From Oscillospiraceae bacterium (GTDB lineage Bacteria > Bacillota > Clostridia > Saccharofermentanales > Saccharofermentanaceae): a stretch of 64,000 nucleotides of DNA. This document shows, one piece after another, positions 11,201 through 57,445 of the stretch. The DNA lies in contig SVIZ01000002.1 of the NCBI GenBank assembly GCA_015069205.1, positions 186,001 to 250,000 on the forward strand. Direction: 5' to 3'. The notes below the pieces were generated by a model that searched no databases, was not told where the DNA came from, and saw nothing but the letters and a program-made list of their open reading frames with translations. How positions within the stretch are numbered: position 1 is the first letter of the stretch; each line of letters opens with the position of its first letter. The position numbers and the translations under genes were made by a program.

Positions 11201-14092
11201 GTGGGAAAAAATAGTCCAATACTGAGAGAAAAGAGTGGCACTTTGGGTGTGCTTAAGGAATATTGGCCCCAATTTCTTCTGGCATTTTTATTCCCTACGC
11301 TTACAGTGCTAGCCGCTTTTGCGGTAACAGGTTGTTACCCGTTCGGTGACAGGACGATGCTGACGGTCGACCTTTATCACCAATATTGTCCTTTCCTTGT
11401 GGCGTTCAGGAACAAAGTCCTGTCCGGAGAGTCGCTTTTCTATACCTGGAATGACGGTCTGGGCCAGGAATACTATGCCGCTTATGCCAATTACGCGGCA
11501 AGCCCCCTAAATATCTTTGCAGTTTTCTTTAACGCAAAGACCATGCCCATATTCATTCAGTTTATAACATGTCTCCGTGCAGGTCTTTCTTCGGTCTTCA
11601 TGGTGCTTTTCCTCTCTGCCAATGACAACAAGAGGATAGACAACATCACTGTTGTATTCAGCTCATCCTACGCTCTTTGCGGATGGTTCATATCATTTTT
11701 CTGGAACATAATGTGGTGTGACGCCGTCGTACTTCTCCCGTTGATAATGCTTGGCCTTCGAAAACTCCTTCTCGAGAAAAAGTGTGGTCTTTATGCCGTA
11801 ACTCTTGCCATAGCCATTATCAGCAACTACTATTCCGGCTACTTCCTCTGTCTATTCCTCGTGCTTTTCGCGCCGGCCTACTACGTCTGCCTTTATTCGC
11901 GCGAGAAAGCCAAGGGCGATCCCGGAAGGCTCTGTTTCAAGACATTTATCGGAAGCGCGCTGCGTTTTGCCGCATCCAGCTTTATAGCTGCGGGCACTTC
12001 AGCGGTTTTATCGATTCCCACATATCTGATCCTCAAGAACTGCTCAGCCACGGGCGACGAACTGAAGATGGATTATGTTCTTCAGAATAATCTGTTTGAT
12101 TTCTTCGGAAGACTGATGGTATCCGCAAACCCCAATATCAGAGACGGTATGGCCAATGTATACAGCGGGCTCGTAATTGCTCTTCTGCTTCCTTTATTTT
12201 TCCTGCTTCCTTCAAGAACAGGCATCAAGCTAAAGCACAAGATCGTATTCGGTTCGCTTCTTGGCATAATGTATTTAAGCTTTACCAACCGTACGCTTAA
12301 CTTCATATGGCACGGATTCCATTTCCCGAACCAGATCCCTTTCAGAGAATCGTTCCTTATGAGTTTCCTGCTCGTTTTTATCGGATTCTTAACGATCAGA
12401 CGCATCAGGAGTCTTGGTTCGAAATATATCACCGGTGCCATACTTAGCTCGGCTGCATTCCTTATCCTTTTCGAGAAATTCGGCACAGGCAATGAAGGTT
12501 ACATCCAGATCGGATCGACCCTTGTTTTCCTTATTGTCCAGGGTGCCGCCCTTCACACCGTAAGCAATATCAGAGCCGGCAAGAGTGAATTCTTCTGTGA
12601 GACGCTTCTGACGGTTACGATGATGGTGGAAATGTTTGCAGCTTCGCTGACAACGATAGGCCTTGTCTGCTATCACGAAGGCTTTACGGGTTATACGGCT
12701 TACGGCAAGAACTGGCAGGAAGTCTCAGCTTATGCAAAGGAAGTGGAAGGAACCGAAGGACACATGAACTTCGAGCGTTCTGAAATCTATCCGAACAACG
12801 TATGTGATCTCCAGTCACTTTATAATGTTAAGGGCCTGTCCATTTTCTCTTCCACGACCAGGGAGAGCTTCGTTAAATACATGAGAAACTACGGTTTCCA
12901 CAACAACGGCATCAACGGACTGCGCAATGCCGGTCTCACACGTGTTACCGCCACCGTTCTCGGTGTCAGGAATCTGGTCGAGACTGAAAAGGGACAGAGT
13001 GTTCCGGCTCTGTTTGAGCAGGAGTACAAGGACGGAATAATTACTTCCTGGGCAAATCCTGATGCTTTGAGCGTAGGATTCATGACCGATACGGCGGTAA
13101 TCGACTATGCTCCTGATTACGATAAGAACCTTGATGTTTTCGATAAGACAAACGGATGGCTCAACAGCATGGGCGCACCGGACGTTTATAAACCCGTAAC
13201 GCTTACTACTGTTGCTTCAAGCAGCCTTTCCACAACGGATAAGCATGACGATGTTTTGGTCTACAGTTCAGCGGGTTCCGCTAATAAGGACGGATACTCA
13301 TTCAGTATCACAGTTGATGAAGCAGACATCGGTTCTGATGTTTATGTTTATGTCAATTCCAAAAAGGGCGGCAATGCCACGGTAATCAATAATGGCAAAA
13401 CATTAAAGTTTGAGCTCAGAAGCTATCAGATAATCTGTCTCGGTGTTTATGAGGGTTCACCGATCGAACTTACCGTTAAATACAGCGATAATCCGGGTTC
13501 TTCGATCTTCGTATACGGATATCAGCTTGACCAGGCAGGGTATGCCCAAATGGTACAGACATTCGCTGATGAACAGCTGGAAGTATCGTCTTACGATTCC
13601 ACATCACTCTCCGGACATATCGAAGTCAAGGAAGACGGCCTTATGTTCATGTCGATACCTTATGCTGAAGGCTGGACTGCAACCGTAGATGGCAAGCCCG
13701 CTGAGATTGTTTCCGTCCAGGATGCCCTGATGGGAATAAAACTCGTGAAGGGCAGCCACGACGTAACTATCAAATATACTCCTGCTGGTTTCAAAGAAGG
13801 TATACTGATCAGTGCGGTCTCCGTATTCTTCATTGCCTTGCTCTTCATCGTTCCTGCTGTTTCAGAAAAGCTCAAAAAGAATAAAACGGTTTTGGAAGCT
13901 GCCGTTACGGCAGAAGATTCTGTGACACCGGGATCAGCAATCGAAGAAGTGCCTGTCTCGGAAGTTATAGGGCATGACGCTCCCACTGAAGATTCTTCTG
14001 AAGAAATAGAACAGGACAATGTTTCTGAAGCGCCTTCTGAAGTTATAGAACAGAAAGACGATGCCGAAAAGCCGGAGGCCGGTAATGACTAA
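11201..14092 (+). CDS. YfhO family polytopic membrane protein
   Basis: A 963-aa protein starting at GTG 11201 after an AGGGG-like SD. The first ~500 residues hold a dozen or so membrane helices. The first loop carries the YfhO hallmark D-L-Y-H-Q-Y-x-P-F plus G-E-S-L-F-Y-T-W-N-D-G-L-G. A large extracytoplasmic beta-rich domain follows, then a last membrane helix near residue 865 and an acidic Glu/Ser-rich tail. YfhO proteins have the GT-C glycosyltransferase layout and in Bacillus/Listeria help decorate lipoteichoic acid with sugars, probably from lipid-linked donors. Here it is coupled to a second YfhO-like gene by an 8-nt overlap. Confidence 0.85.
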   Translation: MGKNSPILREKSGTLGVLKEYWPQFLLAFLFPTLTVLAAFAVTGCYPFGDRTMLTVDLYHQYCPFLVAFRNKVLSGESLFYTWNDGLGQEYYAAYANYAASPLNIFAVFFNAKTMPIFIQFITCLRAGLSSVFMVLFLSANDNKRIDNITVVFSSSYALCGWFISFFWNIMWCDAVVLLPLIMLGLRKLLLEKKCGLYAVTLAIAIISNYYSGYFLCLFLVLFAPAYYVCLYSREKAKGDPGRLCFKTFIGSALRFAASSFIAAGTSAVLSIPTYLILKNCSATGDELKMDYVLQNNLFDFFGRLMVSANPNIRDGMANVYSGLVIALLLPLFFLLPSRTGIKLKHKIVFGSLLGIMYLSFTNRTLNFIWHGFHFPNQIPFRESFLMSFLLVFIGFLTIRRIRSLGSKYITGAILSSAAFLILFEKFGTGNEGYIQIGSTLVFLIVQGAALHTVSNIRAGKSEFFCETLLTVTMMVEMFAASLTTIGLVCYHEGFTGYTAYGKNWQEVSAYAKEVEGTEGHMNFERSEIYPNNVCDLQSLYNVKGLSIFSSTTRESFVKYMRNYGFHNNGINGLRNAGLTRVTATVLGVRNLVETEKGQSVPALFEQEYKDGIITSWANPDALSVGFMTDTAVIDYAPDYDKNLDVFDKTNGWLNSMGAPDVYKPVTLTTVASSSLSTTDKHDDVLVYSSAGSANKDGYSFSITVDEADIGSDVYVYVNSKKGGNATVINNGKTLKFELRSYQIICLGVYEGSPIELTVKYSDNPGSSIFVYGYQLDQAGYAQMVQTFADEQLEVSSYDSTSLSGHIEVKEDGLMFMSIPYAEGWTATVDGKPAEIVSVQDALMGIKLVKGSHDVTIKYTPAGFKEGILISAVSVFFIALLFIVPAVSEKLKKNKTVLEAAVTAEDSVTPGSAIEEVPVSEVIGHDAPTEDSSEEIEQDNVSEAPSEVIEQKDDAEKPEAGND

Positions 14093-16370
14093 GGCTGCGG
14101 CAGGAAAGCTCAAAACATATGACGGCGTAGTATTCTGCTTTATTGCATCGGTAATCATTGCAGTTGTTTCATATAACATCGGACTTCTGACAGAACCCGG
14201 AAAGATCCTGCCTACGGGTCTTTCCATGCGCAACGGCGAAATGAGCGCCAATATTCTCCGCGGAATCGATCTTGCAGTTGAAGATGTTGAGCTCATCACA
14301 TCCGGAAAGGCTTCGTCTGATCTGTGGAGACTTCTGACATTCGTTCATCTGGATCTGTTTTTTTACCTTGCCCTGCTTATTCCCAAAGCTGCCAGGACGA
14401 TCCTTCTGGTCGGTTATTATTTGAGATTCGGCCTTTGCTGCTCTGCCATGTATTACTTCATGACCGCGCACATCAGGCTCTCCAGACTTCCCGCTGCTCT
14501 CCTCGGCGTAATGTATACATTCTCATCACAGATCGTACTGACCGCCCAGCATGCTTCTCTTATGAACATGGCACTCTTGATACCCATGACAATGTCGGCC
14601 TTTGATTCATATCTTCAAAAGAGAACATGGAAATCTTTTGTTCTCGTATGTCTTATGTCATTTGGCGTTGCAGCATCCGGCGGATACGGACTCATTACTG
14701 GCATTCCTTTTTTAATCATTTTGGCTCTTCTTATGAGCATAAGCCTTTACAGTACATTCAAGATGGCTATTACTTCCTGGCTCAAGCTTTTGGGAGGAAT
14801 AGTTACTGGTCTCATCATGTCTGCGGCTTTTGCGGTTCCGGGCCTTATGTCGATGAAATTAAGCGTTGATATAGAACAAAGCTTCAATAATGCTAAGGTA
14901 AACTACACTGTTTTCGAGGTGATCAGAGGCACGTTCCTTCTCCGTTCAGGCAGCGTTTATGTTAATAATTCTCCTCTGTTCTATGTCGGTATATTTACGC
15001 TTGTTGCCGTAATGGCATTCGCACTTAATGAGATGATCCCTGTAAGGCTTAAGGTCGCTTCAGCACTTATTGCTGCCGTGATCCACATTATCTGCAGTTC
15101 ATCATTTGTGAATGAGACGGTAAGCATTTTCGGAACCTCAGCACTCCTCAATTCTTCAAGGTTTATCTGTCTTGAGATAGTACTTTTCTTTATTGCGGCA
15201 ATCGGACTTAAGAATGTTAAGAGCCTTGGACGCGGCGAATTCATCGCCTCATGCCTCGTTCCTCTGTTCTTTCTTGTCATGTCCGGCAGTTCCGCATCAG
15301 GCACTTCTTTTGCAAGCCCGATCGTTATTAGCACATTCATTGGAATAATCGTTGAAGGATGCATTTTATATGCACTTGCCAAAGATAAGATCACGGATAA
15401 GGGCAAATATGCCGTTCTTTTCATAATCTTCACTTTTGTGGGTATTAATACGGCATTTATGTACTTCAACAATACGATTCAGAAAAACGCTGTTGATGAG
15501 TATTTCAAATTGAGCTACGGAGACAGTTCTTCTGAAAAACTGATCTATGACAGCGATTTTGACCTTCCTGCCGTAAACGGCGGAGACAAATACCAGATCA
15601 TCCCCGGTGACCTCAGCGATTTTGTTGCCGGAGATACGGTTTTAGATGATATTAACTACTCATCGTTAAGGATTTCCGGAACCATGCTCTTTGATGAGAT
15701 ATTCCTCAAGCCTTCCGATAAGAAGGAATTAAGACAGGAAGGACCTAATACATATTTGCTGAGAGAGGGCGGCAACACCCTGACTTTCAGTCCCTTCGAG
15801 ATAGAAGACGGAGAGAGAATGTTCATATACTGTAACGCAGTTAACGGTGCATCTGTAAGTTTCTCTTCTGACAGCGGTGATTCGGTAATGGCGTTTACCG
15901 GTCCTTTCTTTACTGAGATTGCCCAAACATCCGATGAAGTATCACTTGAGTTCATGATCGATTCAGAAGGCGACGATGCCTGCAGGATCTCGATCTTCAA
16001 GTTAAACCAGGAAGCTCTTGAATCCATGAAAGCGCTGTCCGGTACCGCAAGCGGTTCCAGATTCATGATCGATGTCTCTGAAGTTGACGGCATGTGCACC
16101 ATTGTCCTGCCTTATGCATACGATGACACCACAGTCAGAGTCGACGGCATTACCTGTGACACGTTCGAATACTGCGGCAAGCTTGCAGCTGTTTTCGTTT
16201 GTAACAATAACGGTCTCATGGAAGTTTCCGTAGAGCGGAAAGATACAGGCATCATCCCGGGAATACTGGTAAGTGTCTTTGCGGCTGCCTGCCTTATCGC
16301 AATTCCGCTTACCCATATGTATAATGAAAAGAAGAAAGTAACCGGTGAAGGGACCGACAGCAATGCTTAG
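14085..16370 (+). CDS. Second, divergent YfhO-like membrane protein
   Basis: A 761-aa protein. ATG 14085 is chosen because GGAGG lies eight bases upstream; the ATG at 14061 has no SD. It overlaps the preceding gene by eight bases (ATGACTAA). The layout repeats that of its neighbour: many membrane helices over the first ~460 residues, then an extracytoplasmic beta-rich domain of ~270 residues and a terminal helix. The first loop is shorter and lacks the Y-H-Q-Y motif, so the glycosyltransferase role is less certain. The pair may form a heteromeric surface glycosylation unit. Confidence 0.6.
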   Translation: MTKAAAGKLKTYDGVVFCFIASVIIAVVSYNIGLLTEPGKILPTGLSMRNGEMSANILRGIDLAVEDVELITSGKASSDLWRLLTFVHLDLFFYLALLIPKAARTILLVGYYLRFGLCCSAMYYFMTAHIRLSRLPAALLGVMYTFSSQIVLTAQHASLMNMALLIPMTMSAFDSYLQKRTWKSFVLVCLMSFGVAASGGYGLITGIPFLIILALLMSISLYSTFKMAITSWLKLLGGIVTGLIMSAAFAVPGLMSMKLSVDIEQSFNNAKVNYTVFEVIRGTFLLRSGSVYVNNSPLFYVGIFTLVAVMAFALNEMIPVRLKVASALIAAVIHIICSSSFVNETVSIFGTSALLNSSRFICLEIVLFFIAAIGLKNVKSLGRGEFIASCLVPLFFLVMSGSSASGTSFASPIVISTFIGIIVEGCILYALAKDKITDKGKYAVLFIIFTFVGINTAFMYFNNTIQKNAVDEYFKLSYGDSSSEKLIYDSDFDLPAVNGGDKYQIIPGDLSDFVAGDTVLDDINYSSLRISGTMLFDEIFLKPSDKKELRQEGPNTYLLREGGNTLTFSPFEIEDGERMFIYCNAVNGASVSFSSDSGDSVMAFTGPFFTEIAQTSDEVSLEFMIDSEGDDACRISIFKLNQEALESMKALSGTASGSRFMIDVSEVDGMCTIVLPYAYDDTTVRVDGITCDTFEYCGKLAAVFVCNNNGLMEVSVERKDTGIIPGILVSVFAAACLIAIPLTHMYNEKKKVTGEGTDSNA

Positions 16371-49325: not shown

Positions 49326-50417
49326 TTATGTGACCTTTTCGTTCTTTTTTCTGTTTTTAATTAACCCTGGTAATTCCTGTAAAAAGAATTTAGTAAGTTT
49401 GCTGCACACCCATGCAGTAGCAATTGAAATCAGGATTACCGAAAAGTTTATTACGATATCAGGAAAACCAAAGTATTGAAGGTAAGGTATTGATTTTTCA
49501 AACCAATCCTGAAAGCAATACAGTTCCAATGATATAGCACCAAAGAAACTCAATGTCACATTGAGTATTCTTTCCAAAGTCAAAACACGGTTTTCCAGGA
49601 TATCCAGAAGCTTAGCAAGAAGAAAAGGAAGACTTATTGCGATAAGAAACGGAGGTAAAAAAGTATTGCCCTGGTTAACAAATATCTTGAAAGAAGTGTA
49701 ATTGTAAATATATGCGAGATAGAGTCCAATTGAAAGAACAGCCAGAAGCAGCAGATAAGTCCATTTCCTGAAAACTATTTCCTTATGATTTTGAGAAACA
49801 TATCCGACGTATATGCCCACAACAAATATGGGGATCCTGTTGGTGAATCCAAATAGATGGTAAGGCATTATGTTACGCACCAAAAATGTTAAAAGCATCC
49901 AAATAAGAATAACGCAGCCTGTAAAAAGGAGCTTGTTCTTTGCTTTGGAAAACAGCTTGAAATAAAGTGGGAAAAAGAGGTAGAAAGTGATAATGGCAGG
50001 TACAAACCATAAAAACGAAAAGATATGTACTGTATAAAAATTATATCCGCTTACATTACGGATAAAATCAAGAATGCTCCATTTCTCAAAGATGGCTCTT
50101 ATTACAGCCAACAAGAGATAAGGCGGCAAGACTCTGCGCATACGTTTTGCATAGAAAACCGGAACAGATTCTTTTTTTATAGCATATGTAAGACCGGCGC
50201 CTGATAGCAAAAGAAAAATATCTACACCTGCAAATCCGAATCTCTTGTTGAAGTGCTCTAAATAAACAAAAATATTGAGAACAGGATTGGAAGTGTAGGG
50301 GATCAGTGGCTCCCAAACATGGAAAATCAATATCCACAAGGCAGCAAAACCCATAATTGCTGTTCTGTATTTTGAGAGCAAAAGGAAGCCGTTCTTACTG
50401 ATGGTGTGTTCATTCAT
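49326..50417 (-). CDS. Acyltransferase 3 family membrane protein (OafA/WecH-like)
   Basis: A 363-aa protein with about ten membrane helices. The first helices carry the family motif A-A-L-W-I-L-I-F-H with the His, and G-F-A-G-V-D-I-F-L-L-L-S-G-A-G-L follows, both typical of acyltransferase 3. A later loop has the W-F-V-P-A-I-I-T-F-Y pattern. It would O-acetylate a surface sugar or polymer, fitting the divergent surface-polymer genes. No SD; the start is preceded by TATAAT at six bases. Confidence 0.85.
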   Translation of the reverse strand: MNEHTISKNGFLLLSKYRTAIMGFAALWILIFHVWEPLIPYTSNPVLNIFVYLEHFNKRFGFAGVDIFLLLSGAGLTYAIKKESVPVFYAKRMRRVLPPYLLLAVIRAIFEKWSILDFIRNVSGYNFYTVHIFSFLWFVPAIITFYLFFPLYFKLFSKAKNKLLFTGCVILIWMLLTFLVRNIMPYHLFGFTNRIPIFVVGIYVGYVSQNHKEIVFRKWTYLLLLAVLSIGLYLAYIYNYTSFKIFVNQGNTFLPPFLIAISLPFLLAKLLDILENRVLTLERILNVTLSFFGAISLELYCFQDWFEKSIPYLQYFGFPDIVINFSVILISIATAWVCSKLTKFFLQELPGLIKNRKKNEKVT

Positions 50418-50563: not shown

Positions 50564-51880
50564 ATGCTTTATATTAAAGATTTATATATTGATCCCGGTA
50601 CGGGAGGAATGCTGTTTACCATACTATTCGGTCTTTTCGGAGTAGTTGTATTTGCGTTCCGCTCACTGGCCATGAAAATGAAATTCCGTACCAGCACCAG
50701 CAAAGCTTCTGCCGTAAATAAGAATAAGATCCCTATCGCCATTTTTACTGATCACAAAAGATATTGGAATGTTTTTGAGCCTTTTCTGAACGAGTTTGAA
50801 AAAAGAAAACAAAAGGTCGTTTATCTTACCTGTTCACCGGACGATCCGGCCATGGAGAAGACGTATGAATATGTCAAATGCGAATTTATAGGTGAAGGCA
50901 ACAAAGCTTTCTCAAAACTCAATCTTCTTAATGCATCAGTTGTGATATCAACGACTCCGAGCCTTGATGTTTTCCAGTGGAAACGTTCAAGAAATGTCGA
51001 CTGCTATATTCACATTCCGCATATGGCCAATGACATTACTTTGTACCGCATGTTCGGACTCGATCATTATGATGCGATCATCGTATCGGGAGAATATCAG
51101 GAAAGACAGATAAGGCAACTTGAAGAAGCACGTGATCTCCCTGCCAAAGAGATTGCTCTCTGCGGCATTCCGTACATGGATGAGATGAAGAAGAGATTCG
51201 ATGATTCCGATGCGGTTCCTGCTCATGAGAGGACTGTCCTCCTGGCGCCCTCATGGGGCGAGAGCGGCCTTCTCTCACGCTTCGGCGAGCAGCTGATAGA
51301 TAAGCTTTTATCTACAGGATATAAGATCATCATCAGGCCTCATCCCCAGTCTTTCTCATCTGAAAAAGAGATGATAGACAGACTCATGTCCAAATATAAT
51401 GATGACACCAAGGTCACATGGAACAGGGATAATGACAATTTCAATGTCCTGATGGAATCAGACATCCTTATATCTGATTTCTCCGGTGTAATCTTCGATT
51501 TCTCACTCGTATTCGATAAACCCGTCATCTACACCAACGCAAAATTCGACATTAATCCTTATGATGCTTCATGGATCGATGAACCTCTCTGGACATTTTC
51601 GATCCTTCCTGAACTCGGCATCGAACTTACAGATGAAAATGTCGGAGACATCAAGAATCTCATCGACAGATGCATTGAGGATTCCTCATTCAAAGAAGGC
51701 CGCGATAAGGCCCGTGAACAGACATGGGCACATATCGGAGAGGGCGCGAAGAGATGCGTTGATTTCGTCATGAAAGAATACAACGAAGTTGTCGCAAAGA
51801 AAGCTAAGGAAGAAGCTTCCCGGCCTTCAAAGAAGAGCGGAAAGAATAACAAAAAGCAGAGAAAGAACGGCAAAAAGTAA
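50564..51880 (+). CDS. CDP-glycerol glycerophosphotransferase-like (TagF-type) enzyme
   Basis: A 438-aa protein. An N-terminal D-P-G-T-G-G-M-L-F segment and one membrane helix (about 13-31) are followed by a GT-B-like glycerophosphotransferase domain with H-I-P-H-M-A-N-D, L-L-A-P-S-W-G-E, I-I-I-R-P-H-P-Q-S and S-D-I-L-I-S-D-F-S-G-V-I-F-D-F, the last being the TagF/TagB nucleotide-binding signature. The C-terminus is a Lys-rich tail. Such enzymes add glycerol phosphate from CDP-glycerol to teichoic acids or capsule. No SD precedes ATG 50564. It directly abuts the first YidC-sulfatase gene (TAATG). Confidence 0.8.
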   Translation: MLYIKDLYIDPGTGGMLFTILFGLFGVVVFAFRSLAMKMKFRTSTSKASAVNKNKIPIAIFTDHKRYWNVFEPFLNEFEKRKQKVVYLTCSPDDPAMEKTYEYVKCEFIGEGNKAFSKLNLLNASVVISTTPSLDVFQWKRSRNVDCYIHIPHMANDITLYRMFGLDHYDAIIVSGEYQERQIRQLEEARDLPAKEIALCGIPYMDEMKKRFDDSDAVPAHERTVLLAPSWGESGLLSRFGEQLIDKLLSTGYKIIIRPHPQSFSSEKEMIDRLMSKYNDDTKVTWNRDNDNFNVLMESDILISDFSGVIFDFSLVFDKPVIYTNAKFDINPYDASWIDEPLWTFSILPELGIELTDENVGDIKNLIDRCIEDSSFKEGRDKAREQTWAHIGEGAKRCVDFVMKEYNEVVAKKAKEEASRPSKKSGKNNKKQRKNGKK

Positions 51881-54645
51881 TGAGCTTTCTGTCTGCACTT
51901 TACACACTTGTAATATCTCCTCTTGAACTGCTGTTTGAGATCATTTTCACCATTGCCAACAAGATCATCGGCAATGAAGGTTTATCGATCATATTCTTAA
52001 GTCTGGCGGTTAACTTCCTAGTCCTTCCGCTTTACAAGCGTGCGGATGAACTTCAGGCTGAGGAGCGTGATATTCAGGCCAAAATGGCTTCAAGGATCAA
52101 GCAGATCAAGCACACCTTCAAAGGCGACGAGCGTTTCTTCATGCTCCAGGAATACTACCGCATAAATCACTATAAACCGATCTATGCACTTAAGAGTTCC
52201 GTATCCCTTCTGCTTCAGGTACCTTTCTTTATCGCGGCATATAACCTCCTGTCAGGAATGCAAAGTCTTCAGGGAATGTCATTCGGCTTCATATCGGATC
52301 TCGGAAAAGAAGATGCCACATTCATGATTGGCTCTTTCCCAGTAAACATCCTTCCTATCCTTATGACGTTGATTAATATAGTATCAGGAATAATCTACAC
52401 AAAAGGACATCCGTTAAAGGCCAAGATCCAGGTTTACGGATTAGCCGCAATATTCCTTGTTCTGCTTTATCATTCTCCGTCAGGTCTGGTTTTCTATTGG
52501 CTTTTAAACAATGTGTTCTCGTTAGGGAAAAATATGTTCTACAAACTGAAAGAGCCTAAAAAAGTTTTCAAAATGCTCCTGGCAGCAGTGGGCGCTGTTA
52601 TGTTTGTAACAACCATGATAAGGCAGAATCTTGATACAAGACAAAAAATTCTTTTGGTTTCAGGCTGTATATTACTGTGTATACCCTATGTATATTCGTT
52701 ATTCAAGGGAAAAAAACAACCCGTCCCTAAAGCTTCAACAAATACTTCTGGTGTATTCTTTGCAGGAGCAATCTTTATGGCTCTTGTCACAGGTTTACTG
52801 ATTCCATCAACCGTTATTGATGCCTCTGCTACTGAGTTTATTGAAGCATCTGATTTGAGACACCCAGTTATTTACTTATTAAATTCCTCACTTTTATCAT
52901 TTGGCAGCTGGGTCTTATGGGGCGGAGTATTCTATTTCTTTATGAGCGAAAAAACCAAAGCGGTATTCTGCAAAGCTATTTGGATTATCTGCGGCGTATC
53001 GGTATTAGATTATATGCTGTTTGGAACGAAGCTTGGAACGATGACATCCACTCTTCAGTACAATATGACTCTGGATTTCAAAATATCCGAATATCTGTTA
53101 AATACTTTGGTGGTAGTAGCAGTTATTATAGTTTTCGGATTGATCTTTTCGAAATTTACCAAGTATGTCAAATTTGTTCTTATTGTTGCAGCATTGTCAG
53201 TGTTCATGATTGGAATATATCATGTGCTTGGCATTTGCGGAACTTATGACGGATTTAGTGAACGCTATGTTTCAACCGATGAGATTCCCAGCATTCCGTT
53301 AAGCAAAAACGGAAAAAACGTAGTTGTTCTGATGCTAGATCGTGCTATGGGAACAGAGATCCCTTATATTTTTAGTGAAAAACCGGAACTCATTGAGCAG
53401 TTTGACGGATTTACATACTATCCTAATACAATCTCATATGGTTCTCACACTCGTTTTGGAACGCCCGCTTTGTATGGCGGCTATGAATATACGCCTGAAA
53501 AAATAAACGAGAGATCCTCTGAGAGTTTGGTTAGCAAGCAGGATGAAGCACTTAAAGTAATGCCGGTAATCTTTGGCGATAATGATTATGAGGTCACAAT
53601 TTTTGATCCACCGTATGCCGGTTACAACTGGATTCCGGATTTGTCAATTTATGACGACTATCCGGATTTCAATTGTTACAATATTAACGGTTTGTTCAGC
53701 ATCTTTGATGATAATATTGAATCTTCTTTAGCCATGACTCAGCGTGTACATGAGATTCGCAATCGTGATTTTTTCTTTTTCTCGCTTATGAAGATTTCTC
53801 CTGTCATTTTACAAGAAACAGTTTACGATGGAGGAAATTATAATGAATCATACTCGGACACGTTAAACGGGAGTGATATTACTGTTTCTGCGCCAGTACA
53901 GCGACTAGATGGTCTTTCCAAAAGTACTGGATATAGAATTGAGTTTATTGAATCCTTTCCTGTACTTATGAACCTTTCAAGAATGACTTCTATTGAAAAC
54001 AGTTCAAATAACACATTCTTAATGATGTCTAATGATACAACACATTCTGAATGCCTATTGCAAGAACCTGATTATGTGCCTGCAAGTGTAGTTGATAATA
54101 CAGCTTATGATGTTGATATGGTTTCCCGTTATACAATTGACGGCATAACAATGCAGATGGAAACCCCGTATCAGGTGATGCATTACCATGTGAATATGGC
54201 GGCTATGCTTCAACTTGGTAAATGGTTTGACTATTTACGGGAAAATGATGTTTATAACAATACTCGCATTATAATTGTTTCTGACCACGGGAGGGCTCTC
54301 GGTCAGTTTGATATAACTTGCAACGGAGAGGATATGGAATATTTGCTTCCACTTCTGATGGTAAAAGACTTTAATTCAACAGGATTTACTGTTAGTGAAG
54401 AATTCATGACTAATGCCGATGTGCCTACAATTGCATTTTCAGGCATAATTGATAATCCGGTAAATCCATTTACTGGTAACCCTATTAATTCTGATGGCAA
54501 GGATGGTCCTCAAACGGCCTTGATATCTGATTATTGGGATACACAATACAATAAAGGAAATACTTTTCTTCCTGGTTCATGGTATACATTCTTGGGCGGA
54601 GATCCGCATGACCAGGACAGTTGGGTGTATTCGGGGGATTATTGA
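51880..54645 (+). CDS. YidC/Oxa1-like insertase module fused to LtaS/sulfatase-type phosphotransferase, copy 1
   Basis: A 921-aa protein. Residues 1-225 match YidC/Oxa1: first helix, L-P-L-Y-K-R near 49-54, a charged hairpin loop, V-P-F-F-I-A-A-Y-N-L-L (114-124) and the last helices up to V-F-Y-W-L-L-N. The groove arginine of YidC proteins is N45 here. About six more helices follow (230-455). The outer domain (465-921) is alkaline-phosphatase-like: D487 in L-M-L-D-R-A, likely nucleophile T524 (five residues before a Pro), H722 in T-T-H-S-E, and D802-H803 in V-S-D-H-G. Likely roles are polymer transfer or decoration at the outer membrane face. Start ATG overlaps the TagF-like stop; the C-terminal half looks A+T-richer than the N-terminal half. 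Confidence 0.8.
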   Translation: MSFLSALYTLVISPLELLFEIIFTIANKIIGNEGLSIIFLSLAVNFLVLPLYKRADELQAEERDIQAKMASRIKQIKHTFKGDERFFMLQEYYRINHYKPIYALKSSVSLLLQVPFFIAAYNLLSGMQSLQGMSFGFISDLGKEDATFMIGSFPVNILPILMTLINIVSGIIYTKGHPLKAKIQVYGLAAIFLVLLYHSPSGLVFYWLLNNVFSLGKNMFYKLKEPKKVFKMLLAAVGAVMFVTTMIRQNLDTRQKILLVSGCILLCIPYVYSLFKGKKQPVPKASTNTSGVFFAGAIFMALVTGLLIPSTVIDASATEFIEASDLRHPVIYLLNSSLLSFGSWVLWGGVFYFFMSEKTKAVFCKAIWIICGVSVLDYMLFGTKLGTMTSTLQYNMTLDFKISEYLLNTLVVVAVIIVFGLIFSKFTKYVKFVLIVAALSVFMIGIYHVLGICGTYDGFSERYVSTDEIPSIPLSKNGKNVVVLMLDRAMGTEIPYIFSEKPELIEQFDGFTYYPNTISYGSHTRFGTPALYGGYEYTPEKINERSSESLVSKQDEALKVMPVIFGDNDYEVTIFDPPYAGYNWIPDLSIYDDYPDFNCYNINGLFSIFDDNIESSLAMTQRVHEIRNRDFFFFSLMKISPVILQETVYDGGNYNESYSDTLNGSDITVSAPVQRLDGLSKSTGYRIEFIESFPVLMNLSRMTSIENSSNNTFLMMSNDTTHSECLLQEPDYVPASVVDNTAYDVDMVSRYTIDGITMQMETPYQVMHYHVNMAAMLQLGKWFDYLRENDVYNNTRIIIVSDHGRALGQFDITCNGEDMEYLLPLLMVKDFNSTGFTVSEEFMTNADVPTIAFSGIIDNPVNPFTGNPINSDGKDGPQTALISDYWDTQYNKGNTFLPGSWYTFLGGDPHDQDSWVYSGDY

Positions 54646-55310
54646 GGTGAAATTATTCGAAAGGTAGTATTAGTTTTTGGCATTTCTGACGTTACTGTAC
54701 ACATTGATAATTTCACCAATAGAACTCTTTTTCGAGTTCGTATTTTCCATTGCCAATAAACTGACCGGAAATATCGGAGTATCAGTAGTTTTCTTAAGTC
54801 TCACGGTTAATCTTCTTTGTTTGCCCCTTTATAACCGCGCTGACAAGCTGCAGGCGGAAGAACGTGATATCCAGGCCAGAATGGCTTCAAGAATCAAGCA
54901 GATCAAGCACACCTTCAAAGGCGATGAACGTTTCTTTATGCTTCAGGAATATTACCGTATAAATCACTACAAACCGATCTATGCGCTCAAGAGCTCATTC
55001 TCTTTGCTGCTTCAGATCCCGTTCTTTATAGCTGCATATAATCTCTTGTCCAACATGAAGAGCTTCCAGGGAATGCCATTCGGATTTATCGCTGATCTTG
55101 GCAAAGAAGATGCAATGTTTATGATCGGAAACTTCCCTGTTAATGTACTGCCGATCCTTATGACGCTGATCAATATCGTATCAGGAATAATCTATACAAA
55201 AGGACATCCGTTAAAGGCCAAGATCCAGGTGTACGGATTAGCCGCAATATTCCTTGTGTTGCTATATCATTCTCCGTCAGGTTTGGTTTTCTATTGGCTC
55301 TTGAATAATG
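52370..55310 (+). repeat. Near-identical DNA blocks shared by the two YidC-sulfatase genes
   Basis: Bases about 52377-52500 and 55174-55297 match almost base for base, with the few differences at synonymous positions. A second conserved block lies around 52940-53040 and 55740-55840. The rest of the two genes is much more diverged. The span given covers both copies of the first block. Confidence 0.7.
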
Positions 55311-57445
55311 TATTCTCGCTGGCCAAGAACATAGTTTATAAGACTAAAAACCCAAAGCTGGTCTTGTATTCGATCTTTGCTGCTGCAGGTGTGATTACTC
55401 TTGTTTTCTCAGTTATACGCAGTGACTTTGATTTAAGACAAAAACTGGTCATTTGCTTATGCGCTGTTCTTCTTTTCGTTCCGCTTGCAACAAGTGTCCT
55501 CAAGGATAAGATCAATTTCAAAACCGCCCCCTGCAAAAAGAATACTGCAAGTTTTTTTGCAGGAACAGTTTTAATGTCTCTTATAACCGGTTTTCTGATT
55601 CCGTCCGCGATTATTAATGACTCAACTATGGAATTCATTGATGCGGTTTTATCAACGAATCCCATTCTCTATATTGTCAATGCTATGTGTTTATCCTTTG
55701 GCAGCTGGGTCTTATGGGGTGGAATATTCTATTTTTTTATGAGTGAAAACACCAAAGCCGTGTTCTGCAAAGCTATTTGGATCATATGCGGAGTATCAGT
55801 ATTGGACTATATGCTGTTTGGAACAAAACTCGGAAACCTTTCCTCTGCATTGCAGTTTGATAACGATCCGACATTTGCCATTAATGAATATGTTTTAAAT
55901 ACTCTGGCGGTTATCGCATTGAGCATTATTCTCGGTTTGATATATACAAAATGGTCTAAGATAACAAAATCCGTGCTTCTTGTTGCCGTCTTATCGGTCT
56001 TCGTACTCGGTGCCGGCAATATTGCAGAGATCATGGGGTATTATGCAGGTTATGATGATTTTTATGTTCCGGGCGGAGAAGAACCCGTTATTCCTCTCAG
56101 TAAGAACGGTCATAATGTTGTAGTACTGATGCTCGACAGGGCCATGGGAACACAGGTCCCTTATATATTCAATGAAAAGCCGGAATTATTAGAAGAGTTT
56201 GACGGCTTTACATACTATCCGAATACTATTTCATACGGAATATGTACGAATGTAGGATCTCCGGCCCTTTACGGCGGTTATGATTACACTCCCGAGAACA
56301 TGAATAAAAGAACCGATGTAAGCCTGGAAAGCAAACACAATGAAGCACTTAAGGTAATGCCGGATCTGTTTTATAAAAACGGTTATAACGTAACCATATG
56401 TAATCCTACTTATGCAGGTTATCAGTGGATACCGGATCTGTCGATCTATGATGAATACCCTGATTTCTACTGTTATAACGTGAATGGCTTATTCAGTATT
56501 TTCGACAGCGATGAAAACCAGTCATCTGTTGATATGTCGCTTCGTATGCAGGAGATCCGCAACCGTAATTTCTTCTGTTATTCTCTGATGAAGATCTCAC
56601 CGGTATTACTGCAGGAAACACTGTATGACGGAGGCCGTTATAACGAATCGTATTCGAGCAATGGAGATTCTGAAGGTTTGGCCGGTGCTGCAGTTATTCA
56701 GACATTAGACGGTCTTTCGCGAAGTACGGGTTATGCTACGGACTTTATTGAATCTTATGCAGTTCTGGATAATCTGCCGGACATTACTGTGATCGATGAC
56801 AGTGCAGATAACAATTTCTTTATGATGAGCAATGACATTACTCATTCAGAATGCCTCCTGCAGGAACCGGATTATATCCCTGCCAGCGTTGTTGATAATA
56901 CTCAATATGATGTCGATATGGTTGCCAGATATACGATCGACGGCAGGACAATGAATATGAATTCTGATATTCAGGTCATGCACTATCATGTTACTATGGC
57001 TGCTTTTCTTAAGCTGGGTGAGTGGTTTGATTATCTGCGTGAAAATGGCGTATATGACAACACCAGGATAATTATCGTAGCCGATCACGGAAGCAATCTC
57101 GGACAGTTTAATGTTTTCTGCAGTGGAGAAGATATGGAACGCTTTATGCCGCTCCTTATGGTCAAGGACTTCAATGCTTCCGGATATTCGATAAGTGATG
57201 AGTACATGACTAACGGTGATACTCCGGCAATAGCCATGAATGGCATAATCGATGATCCTGTTAATCCTTTTACCGGAAATCCCATTAATTCAGATCCTAA
57301 AAACGGGCCCCAGAATGTGTTGTGCACAAAGGATTGGAATGTAAATAACAACAATGGTAATGCTTTTAATCCGGGCTCATGGTATCAGTTTATGGGCGGG
57401 GATCCTTATAATCCGGATAATTGGGTATATTTGGGTGACTATTAA
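54677..57445 (+). CDS. YidC/Oxa1-like insertase module fused to LtaS/sulfatase-type phosphotransferase, copy 2
   Basis: A 922-aa tandem paralogue of the preceding protein, starting at TTG 54677 (AAGG 12 bases upstream). It is nearly identical over residues 1-215 and 340-385 and clearly less similar elsewhere. The same key residues are kept: N45 in place of the groove Arg, D487, T524, H723 and D803-H804. The C-terminus shares the N-P-F-T-G-N-P-I-N-S-D and G-D-P motifs with copy 1. The conserved active sites suggest that both copies work. It could act as a partner or on a different substrate. No terminator is visible after it. Confidence 0.8.
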   Translation: MAFLTLLYTLIISPIELFFEFVFSIANKLTGNIGVSVVFLSLTVNLLCLPLYNRADKLQAEERDIQARMASRIKQIKHTFKGDERFFMLQEYYRINHYKPIYALKSSFSLLLQIPFFIAAYNLLSNMKSFQGMPFGFIADLGKEDAMFMIGNFPVNVLPILMTLINIVSGIIYTKGHPLKAKIQVYGLAAIFLVLLYHSPSGLVFYWLLNNVFSLAKNIVYKTKNPKLVLYSIFAAAGVITLVFSVIRSDFDLRQKLVICLCAVLLFVPLATSVLKDKINFKTAPCKKNTASFFAGTVLMSLITGFLIPSAIINDSTMEFIDAVLSTNPILYIVNAMCLSFGSWVLWGGIFYFFMSENTKAVFCKAIWIICGVSVLDYMLFGTKLGNLSSALQFDNDPTFAINEYVLNTLAVIALSIILGLIYTKWSKITKSVLLVAVLSVFVLGAGNIAEIMGYYAGYDDFYVPGGEEPVIPLSKNGHNVVVLMLDRAMGTQVPYIFNEKPELLEEFDGFTYYPNTISYGICTNVGSPALYGGYDYTPENMNKRTDVSLESKHNEALKVMPDLFYKNGYNVTICNPTYAGYQWIPDLSIYDEYPDFYCYNVNGLFSIFDSDENQSSVDMSLRMQEIRNRNFFCYSLMKISPVLLQETLYDGGRYNESYSSNGDSEGLAGAAVIQTLDGLSRSTGYATDFIESYAVLDNLPDITVIDDSADNNFFMMSNDITHSECLLQEPDYIPASVVDNTQYDVDMVARYTIDGRTMNMNSDIQVMHYHVTMAAFLKLGEWFDYLRENGVYDNTRIIIVADHGSNLGQFNVFCSGEDMERFMPLLMVKDFNASGYSISDEYMTNGDTPAIAMNGIIDDPVNPFTGNPINSDPKNGPQNVLCTKDWNVNNNNGNAFNPGSWYQFMGGDPYNPDNWVYLGDY

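Follow-up and report, generated by a model that had tools for sequence, protein, structure and literature searches.

Why would a clostridial bacterium fuse a YidC/Oxa1-type insertase module to a sulfatase-type enzyme, next to a gene for a TagF-like enzyme? The question is raised by a 64,000-nucleotide stretch of an Oscillospiraceae bacterium genome (GenBank assembly GCA_015069205.1, contig SVIZ01000002.1, forward-strand positions 186,001 to 250,000; hereafter the window). Two tandem open reading frames (ORFs) of about 920 codons are present there, as the original prediction had claimed (Table 1). Their products, here called FUS, join a YidC module, a helix block and a sulfatase-type domain, and the gene in front of them encodes an enzyme, here called PGTG, in which a YIDPGTG motif with a transmembrane (TM) helix precedes a PF04464 domain. 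We propose that FUS and PGTG form one surface-polymer machine, with a probability of about 0.7. The evidence lies in the domains and their conserved active-site residues, in the frequent pairing with PF04464, in the way other genomes regroup these modules and in the proximity of choline-activation genes in part of the family.

The YidC family PF02096 (cut-off 35 bits) matched FUS residues 34-221 in both copies (copy 1 77.8 bits, E 1.2e-21; copy 2 79.3 bits, E 4.2e-22), and TIGR03592 lay barely above its cut-off of 84.3 bits (85.1 and 84.7 bits). An AlphaFold model built on a 71-sequence alignment had a predicted local distance difference test (pLDDT) score of 85.8. Its N-terminus resembled YidC chain 3wvf_A in Foldseek (E 4.0e-5, 197 columns, root-mean-square deviation (rmsd) 4.0, 25% identity), and the sequence match to that chain gave E 2.9e-12. 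The structural match and the two profiles above cut-off bear out the claim that the N-terminal 225 residues fold as YidC/Oxa1. The C-terminal part of the model matched LtaP, MCR-1, PbgA and sulfatases. MCR-1 (9nww_B) ranked first for the outer domain (E 3.8e-7), PbgA (6xlp_A) aligned on residues 286-921 at an rmsd of 15.5, and identity in the alignment with LtaS/LtaP was 10%. The sulfatase profile PF00884 (cut-off 25 bits) was weak: copy 1 missed the cut-off at 21.9 bits, and copy 2 reached 26.0 bits. Residues D487, T524, H722, D802 and H803, which we take to correspond one-to-one to LtaS residues, were invariant in 71/71 aligned FUS homologues, and Thr524 aligned with a threonine in two free sulfatase-type proteins as well. 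From the helix pattern, this domain is predicted to lie outside the membrane. With its LtaP/MCR-1-type fold and invariant residues, the alkaline-phosphatase-superfamily domain announced by the original prediction is thus present with its expected active-site positions.

The block between the two domains exists as described, with seven predicted helices instead of about six; not every member has all seven, alignment and hydropathy showing two fewer in, for example, the FUS copy on contig C8 of the same genome. Folded alone, the block reached a pLDDT of 88.5 and gave no fold match better than E 0.28. Three free homologues of the sulfatase-type part have 5-6 hydrophobic segments each. FUS may carry both an LtaS-like helix anchor and an insertase module, and the original contrast between a five-helix LtaS anchor and an insertase is perhaps a false one. 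A chance or frameshift fusion was rejected, since the architecture recurs with all five catalytic residues in each of the 71 aligned representatives; it is also disfavoured by 118 of the 120 matches listed, which cover 98-100% of FUS (the remaining two, P0025 and P0094, cover 68%).

How widespread is this architecture? A scan of species genomes returned at least 555 relatives, from which 72 loci were taken; with the window and loci L009 and L010 they make a set of 75 loci with 109 FUS genes, some of the loci overlapping on a shared contig. The alignment holds 71 of the 72 representatives (without L047), drawn from the 101 of 109 FUS proteins that reach at least 850 amino acids (aa); in alignment A4, 48 of the 71 slices were used. 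The taxa include Saccharofermentans, Ruminococcaceae, Lachnospiraceae, Butyrivibrio, Mediterraneibacter, Hominifimenecus and Clostridium punense. At the protein level 7997 sequences were scored, 3927 of them matching at E ≤1e-3, not all necessarily fusions; PF02096 was found in 118 of the 120 matches listed, and those listed with a source name were all named YidC. Four FUS copies and one ordinary YidC are encoded in the window's genome, which comprises 2.69 Mb in 37 contigs. FUS is thus a widespread clostridial family, and literature searches confined to open-licence papers found no description of a YidC-sulfatase or a YidC-PF04464 fusion. One locus (L016:1-20826) carries seven FUS genes on 20.8 kb, a strong tandem amplification of the family, although two of the seven are short or truncated (796 and 579 aa).

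PGTG is a frequent partner of FUS. Its PF04464 domain scored 59.5 bits (cut-off 22.1), it has one hydrophobic segment (residues 14-32), and YIDPGTG was invariant in 23/23 aligned sequences (23 of 24 representatives, without L042, drawn from 63). LicD (PF04991) was absent among its Pfam matches at E up to 1. PGTG relatives occurred in 59/75 FUS loci and lay at most 300 bp upstream of 61/109 FUS genes; these counts were made by tblastn, since longest-ORF calling hides some PGTG genes. Of the other FUS genes, 16 had less than 1.3 kb of upstream sequence and 12 of the remaining 32 come after another FUS. Among 291 genomes of the class, nine encoded a full FUS and eight a full-length PGTG, all eight being common to both (Fisher 8e-15, which overstates independence, as 7/9 FUS genomes belong to the window's own genus). 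In the window, the PGTG stop and the start of FUS copy 1 overlap by one base (TAATG), while copy 2 follows copy 1 after a gap of 31 bp, so that the zero-gap coupling to the PF04464 gene originally described holds for copy 1 and not for copy 2.

The best argument that these modules act together comes from their rearrangement elsewhere. A PGTG profile also picked up three distant proteins, each matched along some 350 or more of its positions (genomes G137, G202 and G235), and all three were fusions of YidC (PF02096, 107.6-117.8 bits) with PF04464 (36.6-57.3 bits), here called YG. This family is large as well, both domains being present in 120/120 YG relatives listed. At all three loci read, a free sulfatase-type membrane protein, here called YS, stood nearby: it adjoins YG in two of the genomes (G137, G202), while in G235 a single gene separates them. 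PF00884 was above cut-off in the first two; the third, a 488-aa protein at locus L095 (G235) with no Pfam match, looks sulfatase-type by eye. PGTG and YG can be aligned with each other across 352 columns of their PF04464 parts (E 1.2e-32). The YS at locus L094 aligns with FUS from residue 361 onward, from the last membrane helices through the active-site threonine (E 2.5e-13), and that at L093 aligns at the catalytic start (E 7.1e-15). A YIDP motif stands near the N-terminus of the L093 protein and in neither of the other two. The same modules thus occur as YidC-sulfatase plus YIDPGTG-PF04464 and as sulfatase, once with YIDP, plus YidC-PF04464, and this regrouping suggests that they likely act together. 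In a phylum-wide search with one YG protein (E 1e-40, at most two candidates per genome), matches were found in 3/398 genomes, with the full fusion only in its own source, G137.

What would such a machine transfer? A choline kinase homologue lay 0.9-3.6 kb from FUS in 12/75 loci, measured with the kinase part alone as query, on the same strand in eight; about 0.27 loci are expected from genomic density (Poisson, ignoring shared ancestry). At one of the 12 (L075) the genome's best PF01633 match was slightly below cut-off. Counted by genome, choline kinase was found in 20/50 FUS genomes vs 56/291 class genomes (p 0.003). Physical linkage is stronger evidence than this comparison, because the class background itself contains FUS genomes as well as further kinases with the same fold. 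These searches, like those for TagD and LicD, covered 50 of the 55 FUS assemblies (without L016, L033, L035, L039 and L073), counted by accession prefix; L038 was counted under genome G305, whose prefix it shares with L036, and the LicD search additionally took in G000. At L078, genes for a helix-turn-helix (HTH)-nucleotidyltransferase-choline kinase, a LicC-like protein and a BCCT transporter precede PGTG and FUS on one strand, and in Hominifimenecus microfluidus (L071) LicC-like, choline kinase and EamA genes come after FUS in a same-strand run. Phosphonate genes were found at one of the 75 FUS loci and at one YG locus. At the former (L032), 4 bp separate FUS from a phosphonopyruvate decarboxylase homologue, and a phosphoenolpyruvate (PEP) mutase homologue lies at 4.9 kb. 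At the latter (L095), YG overlaps the phosphonopyruvate decarboxylase gene, followed by genes for a nucleotidyltransferase, PEP mutase and an alcohol dehydrogenase (phosphonate model below cut-off). Among the ORFs listed at the other two YG loci no phosphonate or choline-activation genes were seen; L093 is a polysaccharide cluster. PGTG-FUS pairs without a choline kinase, LicC-like or phosphonate gene in the sequence covered stand at L065, L076 and other loci.

LicD was missing in 7/12 choline-linked genomes vs 6/38 other FUS genomes (p 0.007), and TagD was above its cut-off (TIGR01518, 165.4 bits) in none of these seven. In such genomes PGTG is, judged by gene content, the obvious remaining candidate user of cytidine diphosphate (CDP)-choline, with other PF04464 genes and CDP-alcohol phosphotransferases not searched and some assemblies incomplete. 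In the window's genome, genes for a choline-kinase fusion, a LicC-like protein and a BCCT transporter lie about 10 kb from the FUS copy on contig C30, with a PGTG remnant adjoining. The remnant (C30:61580-61816) has an internal stop and stands by the BCCT/lic genes, and L055 has an intact PGTG-FUS pair at the matching place. A phosphonate operon lies about 20 kb from the PGTG-FUS pair on contig C8, the last three of its genes above NCBIfam cut-offs (Table 1).

The original prediction had named lipid-linked glycerol phosphate as a possible substrate, and the corresponding alternative is a teichoic or lipoteichoic acid-type system in which the PF04464 enzyme would use CDP-glycerol for priming or extension, FUS would act as an LtaS-like polymerase with phosphatidylglycerol as its source of glycerol phosphate, and the YidC module would help to present the lipid. 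PF04464 together with the LtaP/LtaS-type fold fits such a system, as do the FUS-type proteins that account for 3/3 Pfam sulfatase matches found in the window's genome, and TagD was above cut-off in 10/50 FUS genomes. It was not in the other 40/50, nor in the window's genome (98.6% complete), where the best match, at 30.7 bits, was a cytidylyltransferase-PEP mutase fusion. A TagD motif occurred in none of the 1092 called proteins of the 75 loci, and the linked activation genes are those for choline and, at few loci, phosphonate. CDP-glycerol was set aside as a general donor on these grounds, and we consider a glycerol-phosphate system unlikely.

Could the YidC module instead be a dedicated insertase or chaperone that assembles a partner in the membrane or at the surface (the PF04464 enzyme, say, or a glycosyltransferase), with the outer domain acting separately? 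Its fold and the PF02096 and TIGR03592 matches agree with this. So does its conservation: mean pairwise identity was 0.686 in the YidC module, 0.361 in the middle block and 0.660, 0.389 and 0.523 in three parts of the outer domain, and between the two window copies it was 84.0% in the YidC part and 50.2% in the middle block. The YidC module is thus the most conserved part of FUS, as expected if it bound a fixed partner. The groove argues otherwise. Where E. coli YidC has R366, the alignment revealed Asn in 70/71 FUS proteins and Ser in one. In 15 ordinary clostridial YidCs, including one from the window's own genome, it held Arg (seven), Lys (six), Tyr (one) and a gap (one), and in YG it was Lys in 122/122. 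FUS thus lacks the positively charged groove residue typical of YidC/Oxa1 insertases, and its YidC modules sit on a very long stem in the YidC tree. The window's genome keeps a separate ordinary YidC with the groove Arg, and fusions of a YidC module are seen with two distinct enzymes of phosphopolymer type. An insertase role is for these reasons quite unlikely. The module, best conserved despite its groove change, is not decaying. That the outer domain is a phosphodiesterase trimming or removing headgroups from the finished polymer, with the YidC module serving just to anchor the protein or to dock the PF04464 enzyme, is likewise quite unlikely, since the nucleophile position holds Thr in 71/71 (sulfatases use Cys or Ser, the LtaS and EptA transferases Thr) and the strongest conservation in the protein would hardly be expected of a simple anchor.

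Returning to one FUS-PGTG machine, several observations count against it or against its proposed headgroups. Compared directly, the YidC modules of FUS and YG match weakly (E 0.0011, probability 20). In a YidC tree of 63 rows they form separate groups on long stems, many branches being long; an approximately unbiased (AU) test on 33 rows did not reject a single FUS+YG clade (p 0.063), so that the tree leaves one origin of both fusions unsettled. PGTG was not found in the sequence covered at 16/75 FUS loci, and one class genome (G221) has FUS with no PGTG match. Choline kinase was likewise not found in the sequence covered at 63/75 loci, and 30/50 FUS genomes have none above the Pfam cut-off; it lies on the opposite strand in 4/12 linked loci, and the L032 phosphonate genes are convergent with FUS. 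LicD is present in 5/12 choline-linked genomes, TagD-like matches below cut-off (47-78 of 165.4 bits) occur in 3/7 LicD-less ones, and the 10 FUS genomes with TagD have to be set beside them. The PF04464 family is named for CDP-glycerol. In the window's genome LicD was matched four times, one of the matches standing some 6 kb from the phosphonate operon, and CDP-choline and cytidine monophosphate (CMP)-phosphonate may go to LicD there; the four homologues leave the headgroup of the window's own pair ambiguous. Finally, the linkage and co-occurrence statistics ignore shared ancestry.

With these points weighed, a specific chain of events can be put forward at somewhat less than even odds. FUS and PGTG modules would form one complex, in which PGTG would charge a membrane lipid carrier at the inner face with a CMP-activated headgroup, phosphocholine or a phosphonate, its PF04464 domain using CDP-choline or CMP-phosphonate. 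The YidC-type groove of FUS would pass the charged carrier across the membrane, and the outer domain, acting as a Thr-type transferase through Thr524, would transfer the headgroup to a surface glycopolymer, which LCP ligases (present in 9/75 FUS loci) would anchor. E. coli YidC scrambles lipids in vitro (PMC10491306), and a groove that presents or flips its substrate, as the original prediction suggested, would fit that activity. Of the further points in that prediction, the surface-polymer context, the YidC fold and the LtaS/MCR-type outer domain are supported. We tentatively suggest, with considerable doubt, a new clostridial class of membrane machine in which a YidC/Oxa1-fold module, once a protein insertase, has become a dedicated flippase for a headgroup-charged lipid and sits between an inner PF04464 CMP-headgroup transferase and an outer Thr-phosphotransferase, in two alternative fusions, and delivers phosphocholine or phosphonates to a surface polymer without LicD or TagD.

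The relatives named YidC resemble enzymes of surface-polymer pathways. Should their YidC-type groove move a lipid, FUS would be a clear case of an insertase fold repurposed as a flippase, and the lipid-scrambling role proposed for insertases would become testable in a natural system. The proposal, if true, would also name the missing phosphocholine or phosphonate transferase in gut and rumen Clostridia that have activation genes and no LicD.

Table 1. Features of the PGTG-FUS locus in the window, and the phosphonate operon on contig C8 of the same genome.
Feature	Position	Strand	Description
PGTG gene	50564..51880	+	438 aa; N-terminal YIDPGTG, one TM helix, PF04464 (TagF-like) domain
YIDPGTG motif, PGTG residues 8-14	50585..50605	+	
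FUS copy 1	51880..54645	+	921 aa, ATG start; YidC module, seven-helix block, alkaline-phosphatase-superfamily domain
FUS copy 1, YidC/Oxa1 module, residues 1-225	51880..52554	+	
FUS copy 1, Asn45 codon	52012..52014	+	aligned to E. coli YidC R366
FUS copy 1, seven-helix membrane block, residues 226-476	52555..53307	+	
FUS copy 1, Thr-type alkaline-phosphatase-superfamily domain, residues 477-921	53308..54642	+	predicted extracytoplasmic
FUS copy 1, Thr524 codon	53449..53451	+	predicted nucleophile
FUS copy 2	54677..57445	+	922 aa, TTG start; 67% identical to copy 1
FUS copy 2, YidC/Oxa1 module	54677..55351	+	PF02096 E 4.2e-22
FUS copy 2, Thr524 codon	56246..56248	+	predicted nucleophile, from alignment
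Phosphonate operon	L092:2094-6592 (own genome C8:34094-38592)		HTH-nucleotidyltransferase, 2-aminoethylphosphonate aminotransferase, cytidylyltransferase-PEP mutase fusion, phosphonopyruvate decarboxylase

Promoter and terminator scans gave hits at chance level only. Divergent from PGTG-FUS lies an Acyltransferase_3 (PF01757) gene (window 49326-50417), a relative of which stands between two FUS genes at L017. Further away, two overlapping genes encode YfhO-family membrane proteins (PF09586; window 11201-14092, 497.6 bits, and 14061-16370, 37.6 bits), and relatives of the first also occur near FUS at L030 and L083.

How does this locus compare with known systems? With the Lic and Pnt pathways part of the FUS family shares nearby choline kinase, LicC-like nucleotidyltransferase, PEP mutase and phosphonopyruvate decarboxylase genes. 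In PMC6697681 phosphonate loci have LicD-like transferases or glycosyltransferases; FUS loci differ in that PGTG is a PF04464 protein and that 7/12 choline-linked genomes have no LicD match. TagF and TarF share PF04464 with PGTG (59.5 bits, cut-off 22.1), which differs in its YIDPGTG-TM start and in NCBIfam scores that fall far short of the cut-offs (TarF 23.9 of 550, TarL 17.1 of 1000). LtaS and LtaP have an outer fold like that of FUS and a nucleophile of the Thr type, to which FUS adds a YidC module and a PF04464 partner; LtaS is not known to have either a YidC module or a fused or fixed PF04464 partner, and the substrate of FUS probably differs from the glycerol phosphate of LtaS/LtaP. The outer fold is also common to the phosphoethanolamine transferases EptA, MCR-1 and EptC and to PbgA/YejM, but these belong to the lipid A systems of Gram-negative bacteria and are not known to carry YidC or PF04464 modules. 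With the YidC/Oxa1/Alb3 insertases, finally, FUS shares PF02096 and the YidC fold, and it differs from them in its groove Asn, in its fusion to an enzyme and in being kept alongside a separate ordinary YidC.

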